Translations under genes and position numbers: made by a program
Assembly (NCBI RefSeq): GCF_029626225.1
Contig: NZ_JARUBP010000001.1
Span: 2,542,001 to 2,606,000 of the forward strand
Source: Asanoa sp. WMMD1127
Lineage (GTDB): Bacteria > Actinomycetota > Actinomycetes > Mycobacteriales > Micromonosporaceae
Reading direction: 5' to 3'
DNA: 64,000 nucleotides
Notes under the pieces: generated by a model
Databases searched by the model: none
What the model was told of the DNA's origin: nothing
The model's input: only the letters and a program-made list of their open reading frames with translations
Shown: positions 55,483 to 59,741 of the stretch, in pieces
How the letters are laid out: every line of letters begins with the position of its first letter
How positions within the stretch are numbered: position 1 is the first letter of the stretch

Positions 55483-55854
55483 ATGGCGACCGTTGAGCTG
55501 ACGACCGAGAACTTTGACAAGGTCACCGGCGGTGACGGCATCGTTCTCGTCGATTTCTGGGCCAGTTGGTGCGGTCCGTGTCTGCGCTTCGCGCCGGTCT
55601 ACGACCGGGTCAGCGACAAGCACGAGGACGTCGTCTTCGGCAAGGTCGACACTGAGGCGCAGGTCGAGTTGGCCGCCCGTTACGACATCCGGTCGATCCC
55701 GACCCTGATGGCGCTCCGCGACGGCGTGATCGTCTTCGCGCAGCCGGGCGCGCTGCCCGAGTCCGCGGTCGAGTCGCTGATCTCACAGGTCCGCGCGCTC
55801 GACATGGAGGACGTGCGCAAGCAGCTGGCCGAGCACGCCGCACACGAGCACTGA
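55483..55854 (+). CDS. trxA: Thioredoxin
   Basis: 123 residues with the active site WCGPC (Cys30, Cys33), DFWASW before it and the cis-Pro of SIPTLM near 74. The C-terminal extension ends in a His-rich AAHEH. It reduces protein disulfides in the cytosol. GGAGTGATCC precedes the ATG, and a SigR-type promoter lies upstream, giving control by disulfide stress. A strong hairpin follows. No thioredoxin reductase is nearby. Confidence 0.95.
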   Translation: MATVELTTENFDKVTGGDGIVLVDFWASWCGPCLRFAPVYDRVSDKHEDVVFGKVDTEAQVELAARYDIRSIPTLMALRDGVIVFAQPGALPESAVESLISQVRALDMEDVRKQLAEHAAHEH

Positions 55855-55955: not shown

Positions 55956-57890
55956 ATGCGTTGGGACAACCTGTCGGCTCTCCCCGCCTCGGTCGTCCCT
56001 GATCGGGCGGCGCCGGCGACACCACCCCTGCCGCTGGCGCTGCCCGGCGCAGTAGCGCGCACCTTCGACACGCCCGGCTTCGCCGGCATGACCTTCTACG
56101 AGGTGCGCGCAAAGTCGATCATCAACCGGGTGCCTGCCAGTTCCCGGATGGGCTTCGACTGGACGATCAACCCTTACCGGGGCTGCAGCCATGCCTGCAC
56201 CTACTGCCTCGAGGGCGACACCCGGATCCTGATGGCCGACGGTCGCACCCGGGCCCTGCGCGACGTGGCCGTCGGCGACCGGATCTACGGCACGGTCCGG
56301 TCGGGCACCTACCGGCGCTATGTCATCACCGAGGTCAAGGCGCACTGGCAAACCACCAAGCCGGCCTACCGGGTGACACTGGCCGACGGCACCGAGCTCG
56401 TCGCCAGCGGCGACCACCGCTTCCTCACCGAGCGCGGCTGGAAGCACGTCACGGGCGCGATGGGCGGCGCCGACCAGCGGCCCTACCTGACGAGCGGCAA
56501 CAAGCTGATGGGCGTGGGCCGGTTCGCGCCGCCGCCGGCTGATACGCCCGACTACCGGGCCGGCTACCTGTGCGGGATGAGCCGCGGCGATGCCAGCGTC
56601 ACGGACCGCGAGCCGCTCGACCGCACGCGGCGCTACCTGGCCGAGGCGTCGCCCGAGGTGGCCCGGCTGGCCGCGGCGGGCTGGATCGCCGCACCGCCGT
56701 CCGTGACCGACGACTGGCGCAAGGGGTTCCTGGCCGGCGTCTTCGACGCGCAGGGCACCCACGACGGCGTCGCCCTGCGGATCGGCAGCATCGACCGGGA
56801 GACCATCGACGAGGTCGCGGCGGCGCTGCGCACGCTGGGCTTCGAGTTCGCGGTGCGCCGCACGGGCGGCGCCCGCGGTTGGTATGTCCGCATCGTCGGC
56901 GGGCTGTCGGCCCGGCTGCGCTTCCTGCACACCACCGACCCGGCGGCGACCCGCAAGCGGTCGATCGAGGGCCTGGCACTCAAGTCCAACGTGCCGCTCG
57001 ACGTGGTCGCGGTCGAGTCGCTCGGCGTCGAGCTGCCGCTCTGCGACATCACCACGGGCACGGGCGACTTCATCGCCAACGGCGTGGTGAGCCACAACTG
57101 CTTCGCCCGCAACACCCACACCTACCTGGACCTCGACCCGGGCCACGACTTCGACAGCAAGATCATCGTCAAGGTCAACGCCGGCGACCTGGTCCGCAAG
57201 GAGCTATCCGCCCGCCGCTGGCGCGGCGAACACATCGCCATGGGCACCAACGTCGACGTCTACCAACGGGCCGAGGGCCGCTACCGGCTGATGCCCCAGA
57301 TCCTGTCGGCCCTGCGCGACTTCGCCAACCCGTTCTCGATCCTGACGAAAGGCACCCTCATCCTCCGCGACCTGCCTCTGCTACAGGAAGCGGCCTCGGT
57401 GACCTCGGTAGGCCTGTCGTTCTCGATCGGCTTCGTCGACGAAGAGCTGTGGCGCCGGGTCGAGCCGGGCACGCCGAGCCCCCGCCGCCGCCTGGACGCG
57501 GTCCGCCGCCTGACCGACGCGGGCTTCTCGGTCGGCGTCCTGGTCGCCCCGATCCTGCCGGGCCTGACGGACAACGAGGAGTCCATCGACCGCACGGTGG
57601 GGGCGGTCGCGGAAGCCGGCGCAGCGGGCGTCACGGGCATTGCCCTGCACCTGCGTCCCGGCACCCGCGACTGGTACGCGCGGTGGCTGGGCCGCGAGTT
57701 CCCGTCGTTGGTGCCGCGCTACCGGGAGCTCTACCGCGGCGGCTCCTACCTGCCGAAGGAATACCAGCGGGAGATCACGGCCCGCATCCGCCAAGCAGCC
57801 CGCCGGCACGGCCTGGACCGCAAGGAGAGCTTCGAGTCCCGCCAACTACCGGAGCAACCTCCGGAGCCGGAACAGCTCACACTGCTCTAA
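55956..57890 (+). CDS. Rv2578c-family radical SAM protein interrupted by an intein
   Basis: 644 residues, 346 after splicing. The N-extein ends INPYRGCSHACTY, with Cys77 and Cys81; the third Cys of the radical SAM motif CX3CX2C is supplied only by the first residue of the C-extein (CFARNTH). A 298-residue intein lies between (Cys84 to Asn381). The C-extein carries the rest of the radical SAM barrel (VDVYQRAEGRY, SFSIGFVDEELW) and the tail. The family is related to spore photoproduct lyase-like/Rv2578c proteins; the reaction is unknown, with DNA repair suggested by the SOS box. ATG 55956 fits the box and the family start MRWDNL. Confidence 0.93.
   Translation: MRWDNLSALPASVVPDRAAPATPPLPLALPGAVARTFDTPGFAGMTFYEVRAKSIINRVPASSRMGFDWTINPYRGCSHACTYCLEGDTRILMADGRTRALRDVAVGDRIYGTVRSGTYRRYVITEVKAHWQTTKPAYRVTLADGTELVASGDHRFLTERGWKHVTGAMGGADQRPYLTSGNKLMGVGRFAPPPADTPDYRAGYLCGMSRGDASVTDREPLDRTRRYLAEASPEVARLAAAGWIAAPPSVTDDWRKGFLAGVFDAQGTHDGVALRIGSIDRETIDEVAAALRTLGFEFAVRRTGGARGWYVRIVGGLSARLRFLHTTDPAATRKRSIEGLALKSNVPLDVVAVESLGVELPLCDITTGTGDFIANGVVSHNCFARNTHTYLDLDPGHDFDSKIIVKVNAGDLVRKELSARRWRGEHIAMGTNVDVYQRAEGRYRLMPQILSALRDFANPFSILTKGTLILRDLPLLQEAASVTSVGLSFSIGFVDEELWRRVEPGTPSPRRRLDAVRRLTDAGFSVGVLVAPILPGLTDNEESIDRTVGAVAEAGAAGVTGIALHLRPGTRDWYARWLGREFPSLVPRYRELYRGGSYLPKEYQREITARIRQAARRHGLDRKESFESRQLPEQPPEPEQLTLL
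56205..57098 (+). mobile_element. Intein with degenerate DOD homing endonuclease
   Basis: 298 residues, C84 to N381 of the host protein. Splicing block A is CLEGDTRILMADGRTR, block B has the conserved His in ASGDHRFLTE, block F is LPLCDITTGTGDF, and block G is GVVSHN followed by Cys+1. Two LAGLIDADG-type helices are visible, LCGMSRGDA and LAGVFDAQG. They are only about 55 residues apart, and the second has Gln where an acidic residue is expected, so the endonuclease is probably inactive while splicing residues are complete. Confidence 0.92.
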
Positions 57891-57943: not shown

Positions 57944-58987
57944 ATGGGCGCGAGTGCCGGCGCAGCTGGCATCGAGGAGCTGCGCGACGCGGTGGCCGCC
58001 ATCGGGCTGGCCATCGAAACGTCCGGGGCCGACTCCACCGTCGACGGGCTGCTGGTCAACCCGGCCGGAGGTCCCGGAGTCCCGGTGCGCATCAAGCGGA
58101 TCTCGCTGGCCGCGGCGGAAGGCCTTGATCGCAAGCTGGCGCAATGGGCCGGGGCGGAGGCGGCCGGTCGGTCGCCTGCGGTGCAGGTGCTGGTGGCCGA
58201 CCGCGTGACCGAGCAGGCGAGGGAAGTCCTCCGGAGAGCAGGCTGGAGCTGGCTCGACCTCCGAGGCCACCTGCACCTGGCCGCCCAGGGCCTGTTCGTC
58301 GACGCCAGCGTGCCCCGGCTCAGCGCGCTGCCGGAACGCTCGTCCGCGTTGGCGGGGCGAGTCGCCACCGAGGTGGCGACCTGGCTGCTGCTCCATCCGG
58401 ACAAGCCGGCGGCAGTTCGTGAAATCGCCCGCAACCTGGAGCGTTCCGCGAGCTCAGTGTCGAGGGTGGTCGGGGACCTGCGGGCAGCCGGCCTGGTGAC
58501 CACCGATGGCAAGCCGGCCATCCCCGAGCTGTTCTGGCAGCTCGCCGATGCCTGGAAACCGGTGCATCTCGACGTGGCGCGCGCGCCGTCGACGTCCGAC
58601 GACGAGCCGGTGAGCGACGCCCTCAGGTTGGGTCTCGGCGGTGAGTTCGGTTGGGCCCTAACCGACACGATGGCGGCGGCGGCATACGGGGCCCCGGTGG
58701 GGACCAGATCCGACTATCCACCCGATTTTTACGTTCCTGACCAGACCGTTCTCCGCCGAGCCGGTCAGTTGCTCGGCGTGGCGCCGAGTCGTGAGACGCG
58801 AGCGGCCAGTCTCCGGGTAGCGCCGTTGCCGCTGGTCGTCGCTCGTCGCGTCCTCGTGCGCGGTGAGGTCTGGCCGCTGGCCCGACCACTGTTCGTCGCG
58901 CTCGATCTCGCCGCCGATCCGGGACGCGGGCGCGAGGTCCTGGAGGCCTGGACGCCGCCGTCCGAGGTCGGTCGCCGTGTCTGGTAA
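57944..58987 (+). CDS. AbiEi_2-like antitoxin/regulator
   Basis: 347 residues. The first part (about 45-125) has VQVLVADRVTEQAREVLRRAGWSWLDLRGHLHL in part, a pattern of AbiEi_2 proteins. A winged helix follows at about 138-188 (AAVREIARNLERSASSVSRVV). The C-terminal part (about 200-347) resembles the AbiEi C-terminal domain in length. Its gene overlaps the nucleotidyltransferase gene by 11 bases. It is expected to bind the palindrome upstream and to antagonise the toxin. The specific family is inferred from the pattern and the gene pair. Confidence 0.75.
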   Translation: MGASAGAAGIEELRDAVAAIGLAIETSGADSTVDGLLVNPAGGPGVPVRIKRISLAAAEGLDRKLAQWAGAEAAGRSPAVQVLVADRVTEQAREVLRRAGWSWLDLRGHLHLAAQGLFVDASVPRLSALPERSSALAGRVATEVATWLLLHPDKPAAVREIARNLERSASSVSRVVGDLRAAGLVTTDGKPAIPELFWQLADAWKPVHLDVARAPSTSDDEPVSDALRLGLGGEFGWALTDTMAAAAYGAPVGTRSDYPPDFYVPDQTVLRRAGQLLGVAPSRETRAASLRVAPLPLVVARRVLVRGEVWPLARPLFVALDLAADPGRGREVLEAWTPPSEVGRRVW

Positions 58988-59741
58988 CCCGATCGTCGAC
59001 CTGGCGGGCACGTCGATGTCGGCCCTGGCGCTGGCGATACCGGCGGTGGCGGCGCGCACGGGTCGAAAGGTCACCGTGGTAGGCGGTCTCGCCGTGGTCT
59101 GCCGCTTGAGCCGGGCCTATCGCGCCACCACCGACCTGGACACTGTGCACCGGCGGCGCGACGGCGAGCCAGCCCAGCTCGAGCTGCTGATCAGCAGTGG
59201 GGCGGCGCCCAGCGGTCCGTCGGGTGTCCTCGTGCCGACCGAGGCGGGGCAGGTCCAGGTCGACATTCTCGAAGTGACCGATGCCGACCTTGCCGTTCTG
59301 CCGACCGACCCGACGGACCGGCTCCATGTGCTCTCGCACGCGTGGGCCGCGAGCACCGCGACGCCGATCACCATTCGTGCGGCCGGTCTCACCGACCTCG
59401 TCGTCGATGTGGCCGAACCAGGACCGCTCGTCGCTATGAAGCTGCAATCGGTCATGAACCGCGGTCGCGCGAAGGAGGGCACCGATCTGCTCGACATCGT
59501 CCGGCTCTGCCTTGATCCGACGACCGGGCCGGCATTGAGGCGGCAGTTGACGGCCGCTGATCCGCAACTTAGGGATGACGCCGATCGGCATGCCCGCAGA
59601 TGGTTCCGCGATCAGGCCGAACGATCCTTGCGCATTGTTCGTGCGATTCCCGAAGGTCGGGGAATCGAACTCGATGACCTGCGCCTGGTCGGCGAATTGT
59701 TGCAAGGAGTAATGCGTAGTGGTGGAGCTGAGGGGATTTGA
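58977..59741 (+). CDS. AbiEii-like nucleotidyltransferase toxin
   Basis: 254 residues. VVGGLAVVCRLSRAYRATTDLD gives the nucleotidyltransferase motif with Gly36-Gly37 and Asp53/Asp55; MKLQSVMNRGRAKEGTDLLDI is the later conserved Lys/Arg/Asp segment of the AbiEii/DUF1814 fold. Type IV toxins of this kind transfer nucleotides to tRNA ends in known examples. The GTG start at 58977 overlaps the antitoxin stop. The last 18-21 bases run antisense into the tRNA-Ala gene, so its C-terminal residues are written by the tRNA. Confidence 0.78.
   Translation: MSGNPIVDLAGTSMSALALAIPAVAARTGRKVTVVGGLAVVCRLSRAYRATTDLDTVHRRRDGEPAQLELLISSGAAPSGPSGVLVPTEAGQVQVDILEVTDADLAVLPTDPTDRLHVLSHAWAASTATPITIRAAGLTDLVVDVAEPGPLVAMKLQSVMNRGRAKEGTDLLDIVRLCLDPTTGPALRRQLTAADPQLRDDADRHARRWFRDQAERSLRIVRAIPEGRGIELDDLRLVGELLQGVMRSGGAEGI

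Follow-up and report, generated by a model that had tools for sequence, protein, structure and literature searches.

A probably mobile class 1 intein with an apparently decaying homing endonuclease precedes the third [4Fe-4S] cysteine of an Rv2578c-family radical SAM protein

MoaA is a radical SAM protein. In the passages of the reviews PMC10663303 and PMC3922620 that treat the intein of Pyrococcus abyssi MoaA (on Callahan et al. 2011), a disulfide between Cys-3 and Cys1 blocks splicing when oxidised, and one of the two reviews calls MoaA an oxygen-labile oxidoreductase. As far as those passages go, that intein shares with the one described here a Cys at −3 and Cys1 (here CTY/C, the slash marking a splice junction), and from its Cys-3 we infer that its site, too, is the third cluster Cys. 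It differs in being archaeal, in interrupting another host enzyme, and in having a redox block that is reported from experiment. NCBIfam holds a model named "intein-containing Rv2578c family radical SAM protein" (NF038136), and also one for the intein-containing tetraether lipid synthase Tes (NF045703), likewise a radical SAM protein, which gave weak matches alone here. In AmrS (AmmeMemoRadiSam, TIGR04337), an intein of 444–445 aa is likewise placed before the third Cys (CDLHCGY/C...SN/CQNW) and, unlike the present one, belongs to another intein group. The third-Cys site follows the known rule that inteins prefer conserved sites and sites near active sites, as set out in passages of PMC2814812 and PMC3359363 from which the wording "radical SAM" is absent. 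A literature search with most subscription journals outside its reach found no account of the Rv2578c intein, nor of recurrence of its site across radical SAM families.

The locus lies in a stretch of 64,000 nucleotides from Asanoa sp. WMMD1127 (contig NZ_JARUBP010000001.1, positions 2,542,001 to 2,606,000), here called the window, to which unprefixed coordinates refer. Its relevant features are:

55483..55854, + strand: thioredoxin gene (WCGPC), ending ~100 bp upstream of the radical SAM gene
55956..57890, + strand: gene for an intein-containing Rv2578c-family radical SAM protein of 644 aa, ATG start; NF038136 profile positions 1–574 match residues 1–621
55956..56204, + strand: N-extein, with C-terminal end ...NPYRGCSHACTY and cluster Cys 1 and 2 at −7 and −3
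56205..57098, + strand: intein of 298 aa, from Cys1 (C84) to Asn (N381), with splicing residues invariant in 40/40 inteins
56205..56528, + strand: N-terminal splicing part, 108 aa, with block B SGDH, from the alignment; border set by hand
56529..56981, + strand: apparently decaying LAGLIDADG endonuclease part, motifs GYLCGMSRGD and FLAGVFDAQG; borders set by hand
56982..57098, + strand: C-terminal splicing part, with block F Asp and the end ...VVSHN, from the alignment
57099..57890, + strand: C-extein, starting CFARN, with Cys+1 as cluster Cys 3, and the remaining radical SAM domain

Downstream of the radical SAM gene, positions 57944-59741 contain overlapping frames for a winged-helix protein and a protein weakly matching AbiEii (E 9e-4), perhaps an AbiE-like pair.

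The original prediction had placed the junctions at CSHACTY / Cys84...HN / CFARN, and coordinates, frame, and residues all proved exact. Specifically, counting from the ATG at 55956, the N-extein ends GCSHACTY, the Cys84 codon TGC is at 56205, the Asn381 codon AAC is at 57096-57098, the intein comprises 298 codons, and the first C-extein codon, TGC, is at 57099; the insert is in-frame, and the 55956-57890 frame is open until the stop codon at 57888-57890. The protein matches NF038136 over its whole length at 874 bits (cut-off 700), and it also matches the intein-free model NF038135 (513.5 bits, cut-off 430) and the intein N-terminal model TIGR01445 (34.5 bits, cut-off 24.5). Pfam reports Radical_SAM and LAGLIDADG_3; PF04055 scores 48.9 bits against a cut-off of 29.5, and CX3CX2C is restored once the insert is removed (CSHACTY/CFARN). 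The architecture is already catalogued by NCBIfam, in agreement with the earlier statement that intein-bearing Rv2578c-type proteins exist. The window protein resembles the NF038136 systems in host family and intein, with a match well above the curated cut-off; its intein is shorter (298 aa versus ~340–355 aa in most full-length relatives of the set described below) because the endonuclease part is reduced.

The window's genome contains one match above the NF038136 cut-off. Elsewhere in that genome, a second intein, at C1:4464498-4464752 (L003), interrupts a RuvB-like P-loop (GPPGLGK/...HN/TT) and has no Cys1 or Ser1; from these residues it looks like class 3. A Hint-like stretch lies near the end of a large RHS-like protein at C1:1896780-1897124 (L002).

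Comparison with intein-free homologues fixes the insertion point. L008, from the same bacterial family, closes the gap exactly, reading YRGCSHACTYCFARNTHTYLDLD, with 55 of 60 bases identical to the window's joined flanks round the site and the same residues. The wider family set comprises 97 proteins: the window's own copy (L001) and L004–L099, none of which was removed by a motif filter. Forty of its regions were hand-picked among the matches listed (25 with a suspected insert, 15 without), relatives below the NF038135 cut-off are included (e.g. L076–L079 and L096–L098), and the set is unsuited to frequency estimates, its loci coming from the best matches listed (in one listing, 5 of 35 rows lack a locus). 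An insert is present in 40 of the 97 proteins, in every one before the third Cys and ending HN/C; the other 57 have none, and the motif is uninterrupted in all 57 (by DNA comparison for one, L008). The predicted insertion exactly before the third cluster Cys thus holds for all 40 inserts of the set, and alignment with the intein-free Rv2578c homologues places it nowhere else. Residue −1 is Tyr in 39/40 intein-bearing proteins, and residue +1 is Cys in 40/40.

A claim that the CX3CX2C motif is complete only after splicing stood in part. The precursor already contains the literal string, with the intein Cys1 standing third; splicing adds the native ligand and the chain downstream of it. The accompanying claim that Cys+1 is at once splicing nucleophile and third ligand is supported, as what this residue would be.

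We consider it probable that the insert is a class 1, horizontally mobile intein before the third [4Fe-4S] Cys that still splices and whose homing endonuclease is decaying in the window's genus. Cys1, block B His, block F Asp, the penultimate His, Asn, and Cys+1 are each present in 40/40 inteins, and the block B Thr position holds Ser in 38 and Gly in 2. The residues that define class 1 (Cys/Ser1, block B His, C-terminal HN, and Cys/Ser/Thr+1) are found in the window intein as in all 40, and they appear to fit ordinary class 1 splicing. Given the invariance of the splicing residues, an acyl shift at Cys1 would be followed by transfer to Cys+1, Asn cyclisation, and chain ligation, giving CSHACTYCFARN. 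In the precursor the third ligand place is occupied by Cys1, so cluster loading would be expected to wait for, or compete with, splicing; the geometry is observed, and the consequence is what it would imply. Among solved structures, weak intein matches alone were returned (best 0.0013), and none at 0.01 for the intein-free host L008.

The intein would have entered through a LAGLIDADG homing endonuclease recognising the DNA of the strongly conserved motif. In the window's genus the endonuclease has since become shorter and has mostly lost one active-site acid, and the intein would be retained because imprecise loss would destroy the enzyme and because it would still splice. Across the 40 inteins, 8 are mini-inteins of 148–154 aa without an endonuclease part, and the remaining 32 span 288–355 aa; an acid is present in both LAGLIDADG motifs in 21 of these 32 and missing from one or both in 11. 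The window intein has D in motif 1 and Gln in place of the usual acid in motif 2 (FLAGVFDAQG), the second acid is missing, as in the window, in 4/5 of its congeners, and the stretch after the first motif is ~45–50 aa shorter in the genus than in full-length relatives. The combination of an acid in both motifs and a full-length domain that marks an active LAGLIDADG endonuclease is therefore absent from the window intein. Six sequences of the genus give a dN/dS of 0.11 in the extein, 0.20 in the splicing parts, and 0.27 in the endonuclease part. The last value, far from 1, means that the endonuclease part is still constrained, which weighs against decay; likewise, 8 mini-inteins with intact splicing residues would be expected of a useful intein too, which weighs against the reading favoured here.

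Mobility is indicated by the distribution and history of the intein. On the host tree of the 97 proteins, well-supported branches force at least 18 changes between presence and absence, and intein and host tree distances (n = 40) are uncorrelated (Mantel Spearman rho −0.06; 670 of 999 permutations as high). No single transfer was read from the intein tree, because 11 of its 37 inner branches are well supported and its bootstrap is unsettled. Plasmid NZ_CP129127.1 has a DUF5131 (Gp37/Gp68) gene whose intein is related to those of the family (E 4e-35 to one member) and precedes the matching Cys (GCDRVSKGCDN/C...THN/CYALTLA); this intein looks recent, since both close plasmid homologues compared (84% and 87% identical) are uninterrupted. 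With this gene as query, 1 of 382 matched records covers ≥80% of it in one place. The residues flanking the site offer a point against a purely mobile intein: T or S occupies −2 in 33/40 proteins with the intein versus 11/57 without, which may reflect host co-adaptation, and over 18 independent pairs (sign-test median p 0.039, range 0.004–0.45) the association is suggestive only.

A search for a phage source of the window intein found none among named phages, where 9 records were returned and the intein was covered by H1 alone; we read the H1 gene as helicase-like, despite its annotation "radical SAM protein-like". The idea that the intein lineage is confined to radical SAM proteins was rejected, since the intein of this helicase-like viral gene matches a third-Cys intein at E 3e-31 and is about as close to the inteins of the Rv2578c set, PA0069, and viral L107, L109, and L110 as some radical SAM inteins are.

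The third-Cys site recurs well outside the Rv2578c family. Viral and prokaryote scans used a DNA pattern for CX3CX[FY]/C[..]xGDTx[..]. Fifteen viral contigs were found, with an intein start at the third Cys in all 15 by reading and a C-side junction with Cys readable in 13 (L103 and L104 end inside the gene); Pfam Radical_SAM is over its cut-off in 6 of the 8 viral proteins scanned (L102, L105, L107, L111, L115, L116), under it in L109, and unreported in L110. With His excluded at one position, the pattern found 28 contigs of prokaryote genomes, comprising, by reading, 20 AmrS-type, 3 PA0069-type, 1 Rv2578c-type, and 2 peptide-maturase-like cases, and 2 non-inteins (L163, L176). The C-side junction was located in 15 of the 26 intein contigs, the rest ending at the stretch edge or being unresolved by the search string. 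NCBIfam scans of 5 of the 26 contigs placed AmrS (L157), PA0069 (L165, L167), and CXXX-repeat maturase (L171) over their cut-offs, and L162 not over one. Besides AmrS, PA0069, and the CXXX-repeat maturase, the third-Cys place is used in viral radical SAM proteins, B12-binding ones among them, and the DUF5131 protein has its intein at the matching Cys. It is this recurrence over several radical SAM families, in bacteria and viruses, of which the literature search found no description, that goes beyond the catalogued single case.

Pairwise comparison suggests that at least two groups of inteins use the site, and more are possible. The inteins of the Rv2578c set, PA0069, and viral L107, L109, and L110 are close to each other (best BLAST E between sets 1e-78 to 1e-136), a closeness unchanged without the four sub-cut-off relatives L076–L079. 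The nearest matches of the AmrS inteins lie in two B12-binding radical SAM proteins (E 2e-25); their best E is 0.03 against the 40 Rv-type inteins and 4e-4 against any other third-Cys intein outside the B12 proteins; the B12-protein inteins reach E 7e-4 to the Rv-type set and 4.5e-7 to viral L115. The count of two rests on these pairwise E-values, because single linkage gives no clean separation and joins all 59 third-Cys inteins in one cluster at E 1e-5. In a separate observation, the peptide maturase of a Clostridium MAG (L171, TIGR04115, 2167-5592) is interrupted twice, by an intein before its third radical SAM Cys and by another before the likely first SPASM Cys.

All three cluster Cys places appear to be used by viral inteins, with a modest lead of the third. 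The scans differ, with an N-side pattern for Cys3 and C-side patterns for Cys1 and Cys2, and their reach on 40 profile-found inteins was 25 for Cys3, 37 for the Cys1 core, and 24 for the Cys2 core. The Cys1 scan found 13 viral contigs, 7 judged real (L138, L139, L143, and L148, representing one gene; L140; L142; L150), and the Cys2 scan found 21, 3 judged real (L120; L122 and L136, representing one gene); the others hold phage head, terminase, or other proteins, or a short frame. C-extein BLAST clusters for Cys3, Cys1, and Cys2 number 7, 2, and 2 at E 1e-20, 5, 2, and 2 at 1e-10, and 4, 2, and 2 at 1e-5, where places share clusters; L103 and L104 were left out, and L106, L112, and L114 were treated as duplicates of L102 and L115. 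With few groups and unequal pattern reach, these counts are weak evidence of a site bias toward the third Cys.

Several of these viral genes have unusual layouts. At 2825-5670 of L138 and 660-3505 of L148 lies a radical SAM gene (its first frame is shared by L139 and L143) that is interrupted before Cys1 by an intein and before Cys3 by an apparent split intein. The halves of the latter are in two overlapping frames, with an endonuclease-like stretch ahead of the C-terminal half, and the layout resembles the published "fractured gene" arrangement. In a related radical SAM gene on viral contig L140 (3-2034), the Cys1 intein also looks split, its C-terminal half opening a new frame that overlaps an endonuclease-like one. 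The mini-inteins of L105 (before Cys3) and L138 (before Cys1), which interrupt the same kind of protein, are mutual best BLAST matches in the compared set (3e-23), as would be expected had an intein moved from one Cys of the motif to another.

The original prediction also proposed that splicing might be a switch that controls cluster loading, or might respond to iron or oxidation. In a switch kept by the host, oxidation would form the Cys-3/Cys1 disulfide and stop splicing, so that the oxygen-sensitive enzyme would be made only under reducing conditions; in a variant, Cys-7, Cys-3, and Cys1 of the precursor would hold a cluster or zinc. We regard such a switch, both forms taken jointly, as unlikely. 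It has a precedent in the disulfide block of the P. abyssi MoaA intein, as described in passages of PMC10663303 and PMC3922620. The third Cys, which alone among the cluster Cys is preceded by a Cys at −3, also leads in viral protein groups (5–7 versus 2 and 2), and Cys1 and Cys-3 occur with 40/40 inteins. However, the enzyme motif itself requires Cys-3, and inteins usually begin with a Cys, so their presence is no test of a switch. Against host regulation stand the presence/absence changes and the lack of tree correlation reported above, the patchiness of the intein inside one bacterial family, the endonuclease decay, and the use of the places before Cys1 and Cys2. Beyond Cys1 the intein has no Cys that is conserved in all 40, and an internal disulfide switch was dropped for that reason. 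The window intein contains three Cys: Cys1, an endonuclease-motif Cys (the best conserved of the rest, in 22/40), and a Cys preceding block F Asp (in 0/39 others, where Tyr, Phe, or Trp is usual). A link to the neighbouring thioredoxin gene was dropped as well, since such a gene also flanks intein-free copies: WxxWCxxC occurs within ~1.5 kb flanks of 2/7 intein-bearing and 3/8 intein-free loci of the same family outside the genus. The proposal of a host-regulated switch is thus unsupported. With a mobile, still-splicing intein, redox sensitivity via the Cys-3/Cys1 disulfide is plausible by precedent and would be a side effect of the site, not an established host control; we put the chance that the window intein is somewhat redox-sensitive in vitro at about even.

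That the intein is instead an inactive remnant, splicing poorly in a gene that is a pseudogene in the window's strain, would accord with the endonuclease decay and the window-unique Cys preceding block F Asp, but is highly improbable given the stop-free open frame, the extein dN/dS of 0.11 in the genus, and the intact catalytic splicing residues.

A broader possibility, to which we give little credence, is that inteins have a superfamily-wide niche at the third cluster Cys, independently occupied by two or more groups in bacteria, plasmids, and viruses and favoured since the host supplies Cys-3 at no other of the three places, with a redox or cluster checkpoint resulting in each such intein. 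If this were true, every third-Cys intein would hold its enzyme in the unspliced form until conditions favour Fe-S chemistry. The recurrence of the site provides a comparative series for asking whether inteins at Fe-S ligand Cys are merely selfish or are maturation gates; in particular, the redox-trap idea predicts differently for the Cys1, Cys2, and Cys3 places, because these differ in having a Cys at −3.
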